Below are positions 9,691 through 60,262 of a DNA stretch of 64,000 nt, piece by piece. The stretch is from a virus. Made by a program: the position numbers and the translations under genes. Position 1 is the first letter of the stretch, and the number at the start of each line of letters is the position of its first letter. Below the pieces are notes generated by a model. It searched no databases, was not told where the DNA came from, and saw nothing but the letters and a program-made list of their open reading frames with translations. The stretch covers positions 1 through 64,000 of IMG/VR virus record IMGVR_UViG_3300035698_004752. The stretch is one strand, 5' to 3'.

Positions 9691-9714
9691 AGTATTACTC
9701 TAAAGTTAGGATTT

Positions 9715-10110
9715 AGAAATGATAAGTTTCCCTTAAACGGGAATATGTAGTCGATGAAACGACACAAAGATGTTCTGGACCTGGGGGCGGTACCCAGCGA
9801 CTCCACCATGAATATTATTACCTCTCTTCCAAGAGTAGAAGATGGATGAGGAAAAGAGGTCCCTAGCGGGATACATAATAGATACGGCTATGCTGCCTGA
9901 GCTACGCTGTTGAAGTAAAATAATATTTTTGCTGGGGTCGAAATAGGATCGACAGGCGTTGGGGATGAAGTGGAGATTACTGGATGAGCACACCATATCG
10001 GCTCAAAACACGTAAGTGCAAACGATAACAAAGCACCTATGGAACTACGCCTAGCAGCGTGATTCTATGGGGTATGAGTTCCACCTAGCAACAGAACGGG
10101 CTCACAAATT
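9715..10110 (+). ncRNA. ssrA: permuted two-piece tmRNA (acceptor piece first, coding piece second)
   Basis: The 3' acceptor strand CGACTCC-ACCA (9798-9808) precedes the 5' strand GGGGTCG (9934-9940). The two form a 7-bp stem with one G-T pair. Upstream lie hairpins TTCCC/GGGAA and GTCG/CGAC and a T-arm CTGGG/CCCAG. The coding piece has the tmRNA D-region AGGATCGAC and a tag frame at 10018-10062 (ANDNKAPMELRLAA, then TGA). A GGAACT/AGTTCC hairpin covers the tag end, as P5 does. About 125 nt between the pieces would be removed. This gene order is known from alphaproteobacteria. Outer ends are approximate. Confidence 0.9.
10018..10062 (+). CDS. tmRNA tag reading frame (ANDNKAPMELRLAA)
   Basis: Fourteen codons from GCA 10018 to TGA 10060-10062 inside the tmRNA coding piece. 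The peptide starts ANDN and ends LAA, the usual degradation signal read by ClpXP/ClpAP. It has no start codon because translation resumes here after Ala-tmRNA entry. Confidence 0.88.
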   Translation, partial: ANDNKAPMELRLAA

Positions 10111-51833: not shown

Positions 51834-51926
51834 GGAGAGGTTTTTGCAGAGGTCTGCAACCCGGTCTTGAAAACCGGTGATAGGGTTAGTAGCTCTATGG
51901 GGATCAATACCGCCACCTCTCTTCCA
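51834..51926 (+). tRNA. tRNA-Ser(TGA)
   Basis: GGAGAGG/CCTCTCT, CCGGT-CTTGAAA-ACCGG, long variable arm, T73-CCA. T-loop ATCAATA is non-standard. Confidence 0.85.
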
Positions 51927-55671: not shown

Positions 55672-55746
55672 GGGACGCTGGTGTCAACGGGAACACGTCT
55701 GCTTTGCAAGCAGAAGTTCAGGGTTCGATTCCCTGGCGCTCCACCA
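55672..55746 (+). tRNA. tRNA-Ala(TGC), second copy
   Basis: TCTGC-TTTGCAA-GCAGA, D-arm GTGT/ACAC, CCA. One acceptor mismatch; sequence differs widely from the copy 7 nt upstream. Confidence 0.88.
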
Positions 55747-55754
55747 ATAGAATT

Positions 55755-55860
55755 AGGAAGTACAGGTGCACCTTGATAGGTGTGGTTAATATCCCTTATC
55801 CCTGTTGGGGTTAAGAGTAACACGAGCTTAGGGGCTCAGGTTCAATTCCACTCGCTTCCT
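55755..55860 (+). ncRNA. class II tRNA-like RNA without CCA
   Basis: AGGAAG/CTTCCT acceptor, CACCT-tgat-AGGTG, CTTA-CCC/GGGG-TAAG and GAGC/GGCTC arms, T-arm-like CAGG-TTCAATT-CC. No readable anticodon and no CCA. Confidence 0.45.
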
Positions 55861-56001: not shown

Positions 56002-56244
56002 ATGAAATTACGTGAATTAGGTACTATCATCTCTGGTGAAGTTAAATCTCGCAGAGTCTTTCTTGAAGAACTAAAAGAAGAACTTGAAAAAGAAGGTTTG
56101 GAAGTATTAGAGATTTCAGAAAGTGATATGGAATGTCGATGGTGTACGGTCAAAAGAAGTGAAGGAAGAATCACTCCTATGACTAGAAATCTATTTAATA
56201 ATATTCGTGATACACCAACAATAAAAGAGTTTATAGCGGGTTAG
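56002..56244 (+). CDS. hypothetical protein (80 aa) ending inside a tRNA
   Basis: Follows AAAGGTTTATT. A charged helix (VFLEELKEELEKEGLEVLEI) then CRWCTV. Its stop TAG (56242-56244) lies inside the tRNA that starts at 56235. Confidence 0.65.
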   Translation: MKLRELGTIISGEVKSRRVFLEELKEELEKEGLEVLEISESDMECRWCTVKRSEGRITPMTRNLFNNIRDTPTIKEFIAG

Positions 56245-56332
56245 AGAAGTGGTCACAGGCTACGACAAAGTAGTTCATCTCATCAGGTTCATGACCTGAA
56301 GATCGTAGGTTCGAATCCTACATCCGCAACCA
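56235..56332 (+). tRNA. initiator-like tRNA-Met(CAT) with extra hairpin in the D-loop
   Basis: TCAGG-TTCATGA-CCTGA, T-arm GTAGG-TTCGAAT-CCTAC, ATCCGCA-A-CCA. The A1/A72 position is unpaired, as in initiators. The D-arm GAGA/TCTC encloses an additional CTAC-gacaaa-GTAG hairpin, giving 98 nt. Confidence 0.7.
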
Positions 56333-56336
56333 GTTA

Positions 56337-56431
56337 CGCTGTCCTTGGTAAGGTCTCCTGCCGATTAAGGTAGAGAGTGGGTCGGTTCGATTCCGAACGT
56401 ATGGATAAAGTCGGTTCGAATCCGGCCAGCG
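56337..56431 (+). ncRNA. tRNA-like RNA with two tandem T-arm-like hairpins
   Basis: CGCTG/CAGCG closes CCTT/AAGG, CTGCC/GGTAG, then TCGG-TTCGATT-CCGA and GTCGG-TTCGAAT-CCGGC. No CCA. Confidence 0.45.
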
Positions 56432-56440
56432 AATTCAATT

Positions 56441-56508
56441 AATGGCAGTTAGATAAGAAGTTCAGATGCGCAATGGTCACTACGGCCTATAAAAATGAAC
56501 TCGCCATT
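56441..56508 (+). ncRNA. stem-loop RNA
   Basis: AATGGC/GCCATT encloses GTTCA/TGAAC. No tRNA features. Confidence 0.4.
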
Positions 56509-56519
56509 GATCAATATTT

Positions 56520-56595
56520 GCCTCAATGATGGAATGGTATACATACGCTTCTGAGGAATGCGGTTCTCTGGGTTCGAGTCCCAGTTGAGGTACCA
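56520..56595 (+). tRNA. tRNA-Leu(GAG) with short variable loop
   Basis: GCCTCAA/TTGAGGT, loop CTGAGGA, about 5-nt variable region, A73-CCA. One stem mismatch. Confidence 0.75.
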
Positions 56596-56610
56596 AACAA
56601 AGGAAATTTT

Positions 56611-56811
56611 ATGGCTAATAGAACTTCAAGACATCAAAATCCTGGTGATAAAAACCTTAAAGGTAAAAAATCTAAAGGATATTGTATTTGTTGCGATGAT
56701 GTTATCAACCATAAAGAAAAGATCTTGAAAGAGATAGACGAAAAAGAAATGAAACAATATTGCTCCAGTGGTGGAATGGTAGACACATCGGCCTTAGTAC
56801 CCGATGCCTAG
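56611..56811 (+). CDS. small CxxC protein (66 aa) whose 3' end is a tRNA
   Basis: Preceded by AAAGGAAATTTT. GYCICCDDVINHKEK has clustered cysteines. The last 17 codons and the stop are read from the tRNA-Leu at 56762, so RNase P cleavage would remove the stop. Confidence 0.6.
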   Translation: MANRTSRHQNPGDKNLKGKKSKGYCICCDDVINHKEKILKEIDEKEMKQYCSSGGMVDTSALVPDA

Positions 56812-56844
56812 TGCGTGAGAGTTCGAATCTCTCTTGGAGTACCA
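56762..56844 (+). tRNA. tRNA-Leu(TAG), class II
   Basis: GCTCCAG/TTGGAGT, loop CTTAGTA, variable arm GC/GC, T-arm GAGAG-TTCGAAT-CTCTC, A73-CCA. Confidence 0.82.
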
Positions 56845-56883
56845 AAGTTTGCGATAGCATAATATTTGAATTAATTTCATTTA

Positions 56884-56929
56884 GGGGGTTTAAATTTAGT
56901 ATTTAACCCTTACTTATATAGTATCAAAG
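56884..56929 (+). promoter_or_regulatory. class B promoter
   Basis: GGGGGTTTAAATTTAGTATT, then AACCCTTACTTATATAGTATC. Confidence 0.8.
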
Positions 56930-56953
56930 AGACAAACAAAAGGATATTATATT

Positions 56954-57241
56954 ATGGGTAAATTAACTCAAGAAGAAAACTTTCAGCTTTCAAAATTGTT
57001 CAGCAAAATGGACAGCGATGATATTAGCTCGGTTTATACTCTAGCGAAATCAGCTCGCGGTCGATTGGATATGATGAAATCGGTTTCACTATATGTTGGT
57101 CAACCAGTTTCGTTTGTTGGAAAACGTAAGGTTATCGTGAAAGGTAAAATTACTAAAGTTAACACAAAAACCGTTAAAGTTCAAGCCGAAAGCGGCGTTC
57201 TATGGACAGTTTCAACATCATTGATCAAAACTGAGGACTAA
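56954..57241 (+). CDS. hypothetical protein (95 aa), possible small beta barrel at the C-terminus
   Basis: AAAGGATATT precedes the ATG. A helical N-terminus, then GQPVSFVGKRKVIVKGKITKV, which could be a KOW/SH3-like fold. No family name. Confidence 0.6.
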   Translation: MGKLTQEENFQLSKLFSKMDSDDISSVYTLAKSARGRLDMMKSVSLYVGQPVSFVGKRKVIVKGKITKVNTKTVKVQAESGVLWTVSTSLIKTED

Positions 57242-57242
57242 T

Positions 57243-57488
57243 ATGGGACTTCAAATAAACGTATATGATGACTCTTATGCAAAATATTTGCCTGATGATG
57301 TCGTTAGATTTATTAATGAGAATGCCCCATTTCCTCTTTCTTTTAAAATGGTTTATGAAAATTGGCTTGTACTGGGTGAAAGTGATAAGAAAATTATTCA
57401 GTTTATAAAAGCTATATTTTTAGAGGATGCTCAAATGACATATGGGGATGATTACCCATTTGAAACTGCATTCTATCTAAAATCATGA
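57243..57488 (+). CDS. hypothetical protein (81 aa)
   Basis: No recognised motif. It starts 1 nt after the previous gene and overlaps the next by 4 nt. Confidence 0.58.
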   Translation: MGLQINVYDDSYAKYLPDDVVRFINENAPFPLSFKMVYENWLVLGESDKKIIQFIKAIFLEDAQMTYGDDYPFETAFYLKS

Positions 57489-57706
57489 CTGAGAGAGAAT
57501 TAGCCCCAACATTTTCAGAATTATATGTTGAGGCACTTGAAAGACTTCCGGATGATTATCCGGACTTAGCAAGAATGAAAAGTCACTGGACACACGTTGG
57601 AAGAGATAATTTCTCATTAACAAATCCAAAATATCGTGATAAATGTAAGAAAGAAATTGATGATCATATCAATAAACTTTTAAAGAAACATAATCAATTG
57701 CCGTAG
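57485..57706 (+). CDS. hypothetical protein (73 aa) ending inside a tRNA
   Basis: Charged; its stop TAG (57704-57706) lies inside the tRNA starting at 57699. No family. Confidence 0.58.
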   Translation: MTERELAPTFSELYVEALERLPDDYPDLARMKSHWTHVGRDNFSLTNPKYRDKCKKEIDDHINKLLKKHNQLP

Positions 57707-57790
57707 GTGTTGGTACACATGGAGGTTTTATAAACCTTTAAGCCCCAGATTAGGGTTCTAGATAAGGTTCAAATCCTTATACGGCGACCA
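57699..57790 (+). tRNA. class II tRNA with apparent anticodon TAT
   Basis: TGCCGTA/TACGGCG, D-arm GTGT/ACAC, GAGGT-TTTATAA-ACCTT, variable arm CCC/GGG, T-arm TAAGG-TTCAAAT-CCTTA, CCA. A long variable arm is not expected for Ile. Confidence 0.7.
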
Positions 57791-57804
57791 AAAAGGACTA
57801 TATT

Positions 57805-58089
57805 ATGTCGGATGAAATCAAAATTAAAGTAACCGAAGAAACTGTTGATGATTGGATCTGTGGGATATTTGATGAAGATGACTATGAATTTAGCACTAAC
57901 GAATTAGCTATAGTAAGACAAAATGTTATTGATCAAGTAAAGGGTGAAATCCAGGATAATTTCTTGAACGATGTTTACCAATATCTTGATAAAAATGCTG
58001 TACTGCAAGGTTCAGGATATAAAGGCAACGAAGAAGAATCTTTTCCCGATCCTGAATGGGATCCGGTTGAGAAGATTTTCAAATACTAA
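57805..58089 (+). CDS. acidic hypothetical protein (94 aa)
   Basis: AAAAGGACTATATT precedes the ATG, right after the tRNA CCA. Strongly acidic (DDWICGIFDEDDYEFSTNEL); acidic early phage proteins can be DNA mimics, which is only a speculation here. Confidence 0.6.
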   Translation: MSDEIKIKVTEETVDDWICGIFDEDDYEFSTNELAIVRQNVIDQVKGEIQDNFLNDVYQYLDKNAVLQGSGYKGNEEESFPDPEWDPVEKIFKY

Positions 58090-58090
58090 T

Positions 58091-58163
58091 CCTTGGTCCA
58101 GCGGAACTGGTGACGAGCTTACGAAGCCTGTTTAAGGGAGTTCAACTCTCCCACTGAGGTCCA
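58091..58163 (+). tRNA. tRNA-Arg(ACG), second copy
   Basis: CCTTGGT/ACTGAGG, D-arm CCAG/CTGG, loop TTACGAA, T-arm GGGAG-TTCAACT-CTCCC, T73-CCA. Confidence 0.82.
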
Positions 58164-58168
58164 TATAT

Positions 58169-58242
58169 TGGGGAATATTTTAACGGTAGAAACGTAGACT
58201 CTGACTCTATTAGTCCAGGTTCGAATCCTGGTTCCTCAGCCA
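58169..58242 (+). tRNA. tRNA-Gln(CTG)
   Basis: TGGGGAA/TTCCTCA, GTAGA-CTCTGAC-TCTAT, G73-CCA. Confidence 0.85.
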
Positions 58243-58246
58243 ATAT

Positions 58247-58330
58247 GCTCGTATGATGGAATGGTAGACATAGCAGCCTCAAACACTGTGGCCGTAAGGT
58301 GTGAGAGTTCGAATCTCTCTACGAGTACCA
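58247..58330 (+). tRNA. tRNA-Leu(CAA), class II
   Basis: GCTCGTA/TACGAGT, loop CTCAAAC, variable arm GCC/GGT, T-arm GAGAG-TTCGAAT-CTCTC, A73-CCA. Confidence 0.85.
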
Positions 58331-58346
58331 AACAAAGGATTATATT

Positions 58347-58604
58347 ATGAATTGTTATAAGATAAGATCTAAGAAAGAGATTAGAGATAAACTCGCAGCA
58401 GAAGCAGATCCTAGATGGCCTATCCCAGAATTTTGGGGAGTAATGAATACCGGGAGGGATATGTGGGACACCGCTGGCGGCGCAAGCAAAGCACTAAAAG
58501 CTAGTGGTTATCACCGCGGTCAAAGTTTAACAGATTTTGAAATTGTTGAGTTCGACTTAGTTGCAACGGGAAAAACAATTCCTATTAAGGTTAAGAAATC
58601 ATGA
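58347..58604 (+). CDS. hypothetical protein (85 aa)
   Basis: AAAGGATTATATT follows the tRNA CCA. It has Trp/Gly-rich FWGVMNTGRDMWDTAGG, no known family. Overlaps the next gene by 4 nt. Confidence 0.6.
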   Translation: MNCYKIRSKKEIRDKLAAEADPRWPIPEFWGVMNTGRDMWDTAGGASKALKASGYHRGQSLTDFEIVEFDLVATGKTIPIKVKKS

Positions 58605-58945
58605 ACGCTCTTAAGATGACAAAAGAATTAGTTGACTATTATCCATGTAGAATACATGACAAGGGTCCAGGTGCATGGGGCGTCAGATCACACGACGACT
58701 TCGAACAATATCTAGAAGGCGGCAAAGCAGCAGCATATGTTGCAGCCAATCTTTTAAATGGATTACCTGCTCAAGCGGATCTAATTAATTTTGTGACAGA
58801 TCCAAAAGAAATTCACGATCTTGCCTCGATAACACGAGTAGAAGTCATTGATAAAACTGGCAGAGCTTATACGAACATGAAAGCTGAGAACGTCTCGCTT
58901 TCATTCCAAGACGACAATCGCACTCTCAAAGTGTTTATTGATTAG
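58601..58945 (+). CDS. hypothetical protein (114 aa)
   Basis: Mixed alpha/beta (KAAAYVAANLLNGLPAQADL) with no recognised motif, coupled to the previous gene. Confidence 0.6.
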   Translation: MNALKMTKELVDYYPCRIHDKGPGAWGVRSHDDFEQYLEGGKAAAYVAANLLNGLPAQADLINFVTDPKEIHDLASITRVEVIDKTGRAYTNMKAENVSLSFQDDNRTLKVFID

Positions 58946-58961
58946 GAAACAAAATGATTAT

Positions 58962-59037
58962 GTCCCGGTCGACTAGTGGTCTAGGTCGCCTCCCTCTCAA
59001 GGAGGAAACGCGGATTCGAATTCCGTTCGGGGCTCCA
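58962..59037 (+). tRNA. tRNA-Glu(CTC)
   Basis: GTCCCGG/TCGGGGC, CCTCC-CTCTCAA-GGAGG, T-arm CGGA-TTCGAAT-TCCG, T73-CCA. Confidence 0.85.
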
Positions 59038-59051
59038 GAAAGGAATATATT

Positions 59052-59255
59052 ATGGCTGATTTAAAATCATCAGAAGATTGGCACAAAGAGCCAAAATACA
59101 ATAAAATTGTTATAATGGATCCAGACGGTTGGAACCGAAAAGATTATAAAAATAGTTGGGCGGAAGAAATTTCACGCGATGAATTCGAACAAAGAGTTGG
59201 ATTATCAACGTGCAGTTACCCTGCCGGATTTTTTGAGCAATATAAATCCGCATAG
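59052..59255 (+). CDS. hypothetical protein (67 aa) ending inside tRNA-Val
   Basis: AAAGGAATATATT follows the tRNA CCA. The stop TAG (59253-59255) uses bases 8-10 of the tRNA that starts at 59246. Confidence 0.62.
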   Translation: MADLKSSEDWHKEPKYNKIVIMDPDGWNRKDYKNSWAEEISRDEFEQRVGLSTCSYPAGFFEQYKSA

Positions 59256-59320
59256 TTCAGGGGAAGAACGCTTCGTTGACATCGAAGAGGTCGCTGGTTC
59301 AATTCCAGCTGCGGATACCA
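59246..59320 (+). tRNA. tRNA-Val(GAC)
   Basis: ATCCGCA/TGCGGAT, CTTCG-TTGACAT-CGAAG, T-arm GCTGG-TTCAATT-CCAGC, CCA. Confidence 0.9.
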
Positions 59321-60147: not shown

Positions 60148-60160
60148 GTCTTAAACAAAT

Positions 60161-60249
60161 GGAGAGTGAAGGGGTCAGGTGACCTTGCTCGCTTGGAAAG
60201 CTAAGTGCTGGCGATAGTCAGTGGATTTCGATTATCCCGTTCTCCTCCA
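60161..60249 (+). tRNA. tRNA-Ser(GGA)
   Basis: GGAGAGT/GTTCTCC, loop TTGGAAA, long variable arm, T73-CCA. The anticodon stem is weak. Confidence 0.75.
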
Positions 60250-60262
60250 GAAAGGTTATATT

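Follow-up and report, generated by a model that had tools for sequence, protein, structure and literature searches.

Four small phage genes in a tRNA-rich stretch of DNA end within the tRNA genes that follow them, and the question raised by this locus is whether the arrangement serves the phage in some way or simply reflects how tightly its genes are packed. The window analyzed here is 64 kb long and was taken from a virus record of 69,703 bases. Judging from its UvsX, which best matches that of Phage C48C1 (56% identity), the virus is T4-like. ARAGORN called 32 tRNA genes in the window, all at 48.6 to 61.6 kb and with small genes between them, and the final part of the record adds 2 more. In an earlier note on this DNA, it was proposed that RNase P cleavage of the four tRNAs removes the upstream stop codons, and that the resulting nonstop mRNA could be rescued by the tmRNA of the phage, thereby linking two unusual features of the genome. 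The features concerned are listed below.

56002 to 56244, plus strand: CDS of 80 aa, no known family; its TAG stop is nt 8 to 10 of the tRNA at 56235
56235 to 56332, plus strand: tRNA-Met(CAU)-like sequence of 98 nt, a weak call (partial Rfam match of 28.4 bits; fold z of -3.0)
56611 to 56811, plus strand: CDS of 66 aa, no known family; its TAG stop is nt 48 to 50 of the tRNA at 56762
56762 to 56844, plus strand: tRNA-Leu(UAG) (ARAGORN; Rfam, 45.7 bits)
57485 to 57706, plus strand: CDS of 73 aa; its TAG stop is nt 6 to 8 of the tRNA at 57699
57699 to 57790, plus strand: tRNA-Ile(UAU) of 92 nt with a long variable arm and G8 (ARAGORN; no Rfam match)
59052 to 59255, plus strand: CDS of 67 aa, PHROG 11725 (unknown function); its TAG stop is nt 8 to 10 of the tRNA at 59246
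59246 to 59320, plus strand: tRNA-Val(GAC) with a fully paired acceptor stem (ARAGORN; Rfam, 66.6 bits)
9691 to 10106, plus strand: permuted two-piece tmRNA of the alphaproteobacterial type (RF01849, 115.6 bits; RF04321, 103.3 bits)
10018 to 10062, plus strand: tmRNA tag frame, reading ANDNKAPMELRLAA and then TGA

The positions given in the earlier note agree with ours: in all four pairs, the frame of a codirectional CDS enters the tRNA and stops within it (stops ending at 56244, 56811, 57706 and 59255, in tRNAs starting at 56235, 56762, 57699 and 59246). The TAG had also been placed at tRNA nt 8 to 10 in three cases; we find it there in two only (56244 and 59255), the stop at 57706 occupying nt 6 to 8 and that at 56811 nt 48 to 50. 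The last of these is an overlap of 50 bases, such that about the last 16 codons of the 66-aa protein, together with its stop, come from tRNA sequence; the other overlaps amount to a few bases. Codon-usage scores are positive in all four overlapping CDSs (16 to 19), and three of them have a Shine-Dalgarno-like motif, while the fourth (57485 to 57706) overlaps the upstream stop as ATGA. On the RNA side, the tRNAs at 59246 and 56762 are solid, standard tRNAs by Rfam score, and the other two are weak.

These two weak tRNAs (at 56235 and 57699) may be decayed or nonfunctional tRNA-like sequences, in which case no processing conflict would arise there. ARAGORN missed the tRNA at 56235, which gave only a partial, subthreshold match in Rfam (28.4 bits against a threshold of 29); its D loop holds an extra hairpin of some 20 nt, and A1 and A72 are mismatched. 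ARAGORN did call the tRNA at 57699, which nevertheless had no Rfam match even at an E value of up to 1, carries a G at the normally conserved U8 and has an unusually long variable arm. However, CCA and an acceptor stem of six or seven pairs are retained in both sequences, and each has a better fold than its shuffled versions (z of -3.0 and -2.4, respectively). We regard decay of these two tRNAs as possible, if somewhat unlikely; it would in any case be compatible with gene packing as the explanation of the overlaps.

The tRNA cluster may contain several degenerate or unusual tRNAs. An uncalled tRNA-like cloverleaf with a terminal CCA lies at 58091 to 58163, 1 to 2 nt past the stop of the CDS at 57805 to 58089, and folds no better than shuffled sequences; two more tRNA-like stretches seen by eye (55745 to 55860 and 60160 to 60255) are absent from the ARAGORN and Rfam calls. 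In addition, Rfam reports a tRNA-Sec at 51834 to 51922 that is barely above threshold (48.8 bits against 47) and is missing from the ARAGORN list; it may be one more tRNA whose variable arm is long.

Whether four overlaps are unusual depends on how often such overlaps occur in phages generally. We drew 120 and then 119 random tRNA-bearing loci from IMG/VR, called genes by codon usage with a custom-made caller and tRNAs with ARAGORN, and defined a junction as a CDS whose next feature is a codirectional tRNA no more than 200 nt away; junctions sharing an identical tRNA plus 20 nt upstream were counted once. This left 207 phage junctions in 88 records. The stop codon was inside the tRNA in 34/207 junctions, distributed over 28 of the 88 records, and in another 76 junctions the CDS ended 0 to 9 nt ahead of the tRNA. 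Among 116 cellular loci, 4/38 junctions overlapped and a single junction (1/38) had a gap of 0 to 9 nt, the latter class differing strongly between phages and cells (p = 3e-6). A first, looser tiling of ORFs had given overlaps in 62/249 phage and 6/14 window junctions but included spurious ORFs and was dropped; the codon-score-filtered counts used here are lower, and the choice therefore disfavors the phenomenon.

Measured by the same pipeline, 3/10 junctions in the window overlap (Fisher p = 0.38 against the phage baseline of 34/207), or 4/11 when the tRNA at 56235 is added by hand (p = 0.10), an addition that favors the window only, given that baseline tRNAs came from ARAGORN alone. With respect to overlaps, the window is thus typical of phages, perhaps at the high end, and the difference is nonsignificant. 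In C48C1, the nearest phage by UvsX, there is one overlap, of just 1 base, among four junctions. Close packing extends to neighboring CDS pairs in the window, 49/100 of which overlap as well, mostly by 1, 4 or 8 nt. CDSs that overlap a tRNA were no shorter than the rest (medians of 121 and 103.5 aa; p = 0.84).

The recurrence of stops at tRNA position 10 has a simple source. U8-A9-G10 belongs to the tRNA consensus and spells TAG in 270/629 phage tRNAs (and in 15/32 window tRNAs), which makes position 10 the place where a frame entering a tRNA most often stops. Indeed, when frames were read in at random, position 10 was the commonest first stop, the share among tRNAs entered in that frame being 48% for phages and 62% for the window. 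The UAG at nt 8 to 10 is therefore a matter of tRNA consensus and not of designed placement, and overlaps are common in tRNA-carrying phages because many tRNAs hold this built-in UAG. Of the 34 phage overlaps, 13 end exactly at position 10, 7 at positions 1 to 9 and 14 deeper.

One result leaves room for selection. When loss of the stop was simulated at 97 close phage junctions, 57 of the extended frames landed in the tRNA (12 no deeper than position 10 and 45 beyond it), whereas 20 of the 34 observed overlaps fall at position 10 or before and 14 are deep (p = 0.0005). This excess over simulated read-through implies that short overlaps are kept or that deep ones are lost, and it could hide a function. 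One candidate function is control of the tRNA by translation. Ribosomes that terminate at nt 8 to 10 would cover its 5′ part and hold back folding and cleavage, and tRNA output would rise only when upstream translation drops. The stop does sit where the D stem begins, within the span of a ribosome footprint, and the excess of short overlaps counts in favor of this reading. However, many combinations of tRNA and CDS share the arrangement in many records, which favors packing, and we consider such control very unlikely. Marginally less improbable, to our minds, albeit speculative, is that U8-A9-G10 in tRNA-rich phages is a selected dual-use element, at once tRNA core and upstream stop. A transcript would then yield either completed protein or mature tRNA and could not sustain both for long, with RNase P acting as a timer that shuts off translation of the small genes and any tmRNA present providing rescue.

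The overlapping proteins themselves say little about the history of the arrangement. Homologues were found only for the protein encoded at 59052 to 59255 (PHROG 11725), in 75 phage records by tblastn; the same search of 50,697 phage records returned no relatives of the other three. Likewise, no relatives emerged when IMG/VR was scanned with patterns from three of these proteins (all but that encoded at 56611), a scan with a neighboring protein found two loci, both lacking tRNAs, and a search for near DNA gave no matches. In three fetched records with homologues of the 59052 to 59255 protein, no tRNA adjoins the gene and the C terminus is similar in length, which suggests that this gene was little lengthened by entering the tRNA.

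The other half of the earlier proposal concerns the tmRNA. Although ARAGORN output for the window lacks one, Rfam detects a full-length permuted tmRNA, with scores over the full models well above their cutoffs (103.3 bits for RF04321, cutoff 47; 115.6 bits for RF01849, cutoff 50). Its tag frame is open and ends in LAA, a ClpXP signal, and a spacer of about 120 nt (9810 to 9935) separates its two pieces. The geometry of the deduction also holds, in that a cut 5′ of the tRNA would leave the upstream message without its stop in a genome that encodes a tmRNA. From these elements one could construct a regulated switch, in which the RNase P cut serves to shut off the upstream gene via nonstop mRNA and the phage keeps its tmRNA for rescue. 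The overlap geometry would indeed produce nonstop mRNA, the encoded tmRNA is full length with a tag ending in LAA, and the nonstop idea has a precedent in that proposed for selB-selC (PMC8124441).

If the tmRNA were kept for this purpose, the two features might be expected to occur together. We searched for both tmRNA families in the junction-bearing records of the two samples (66 and 26 records). Overlap frequency did not differ with the presence of a tmRNA: 14/75 junctions with and 20/132 without (p = 0.56) in records of all sizes, and 11/61 with and 12/71 without (p = 1.0) in records of at least 60 kb, although the numbers are modest and records may be fragments, which makes absence of a tmRNA uncertain. 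Of the 34 overlaps, 20 lie in records without a detected tmRNA. An apparent association at the level of records in the first sample (10/17 versus 13/49; p = 0.021) could be traced to the length of the records, the same test at 100 kb or more giving 6/12 versus 5/12 (p = 1.0). Moreover, no SmpB gene was found in the 69.7-kb record, so rescue by the tmRNA would need the SmpB of the host. A regulated switch is, in our judgment, quite unlikely, only slightly less so than control of the tRNA by translation. We thus found no link between the overlaps and the tmRNA; the former are common in phages and call for no special partner, and their frequency did not differ with tmRNA carriage in the records sampled. 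The deduction made in the earlier note is sensible, but it is neither new in kind nor supported here as a special link.

We conclude that the overlaps probably represent ordinary gene packing in a tRNA-rich phage, and that any nonstop fragments left by RNase P are an unselected side effect. Protein genes abut the next tRNA gene or run a few bases into it, presumably within one polycistronic transcript. A frame that enters the tRNA would most likely meet, as its first stop, the UAG formed by the conserved U8, A9 and G10, and the tRNA core would in this way double as a stop. Ribosomes trailing the polymerase would complete the upstream protein before the tRNA has been completed, folded and cut. 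The RNase P cut would subsequently strip the upstream message of its stop, and the nonstop fragment would either decay or be relieved of its ribosomes by a tmRNA from the host or the phage, without selection for this outcome. To our knowledge, phages have no stop repair of the kind that mitochondrial polyadenylation provides. Besides the excess of short overlaps, two observations run counter to packing as the whole explanation: the proportion in the window (4/11) is nominally about twice the baseline, and the gene ending at 56811 reads 50 nt into its tRNA, beyond what packing would need.

In several respects the arrangement resembles known systems. Mukai (2021; PMC8124441) proposed that tRNA processing makes nonstop mRNA at selB-selC, where, as here, a protein frame enters the codirectional tRNA that follows it. 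According to that report, the selB stop of Dyella and Luteibacter lies at nt 46 to 48 of tRNA-Sec, close to the nt 48 to 50 occupied by the stop at 56811. The selB-selC case as presented there, however, concerns one gene pair with a functional logic (SelB and its tRNA), whereas the phage genes are small and unrelated, and two of the four window overlaps are short ones ending at UAG8-10. In human mitochondrial mRNAs (PMC9674279), excision of a tRNA by RNase P likewise defines the upstream mRNA 3′ end, with loss of the full stop, but there polyadenylation is described as completing it.

Phages from aquatic habitats are known to carry permuted tmRNAs (PMC9004378); the methylophage Melnitz, an aquatic myophage, has a two-piece one of the same alphaproteobacterial type, and its report counts tmRNAs in 402/18,146 phage genomes. 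CDS-tRNA overlap is not among the features described for Melnitz in that account, and Melnitz carries a glutamine riboswitch, whereas Rfam detected none in the phage window. In mycobacteriophage Fionnbharth (PMC10865867), the stop of gene 37 directly abuts the 5′ end of a tRNA-Lys; per the figure legend, the two abut without overlapping, and the locus was studied for lysogeny. A literature search, the coverage of which excluded most subscription journals, found no report of phage CDS stops at tRNA nt 8 to 10. The one mildly new point is that phages repeatedly use UAG8-10 as a stop.

CDS-tRNA overlap, which the bacterial literature consulted here reports mainly for selB-selC, is thus common in phages (34/207 junctions), and its favored landing site is the UAG at tRNA nt 8 to 10. 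Genes of this type would be shortened or lost in annotation pipelines that forbid overlap between CDSs and tRNAs. Should the processing conflict have consequences, phages would offer a convenient setting in which to measure how translation termination competes with RNase P.
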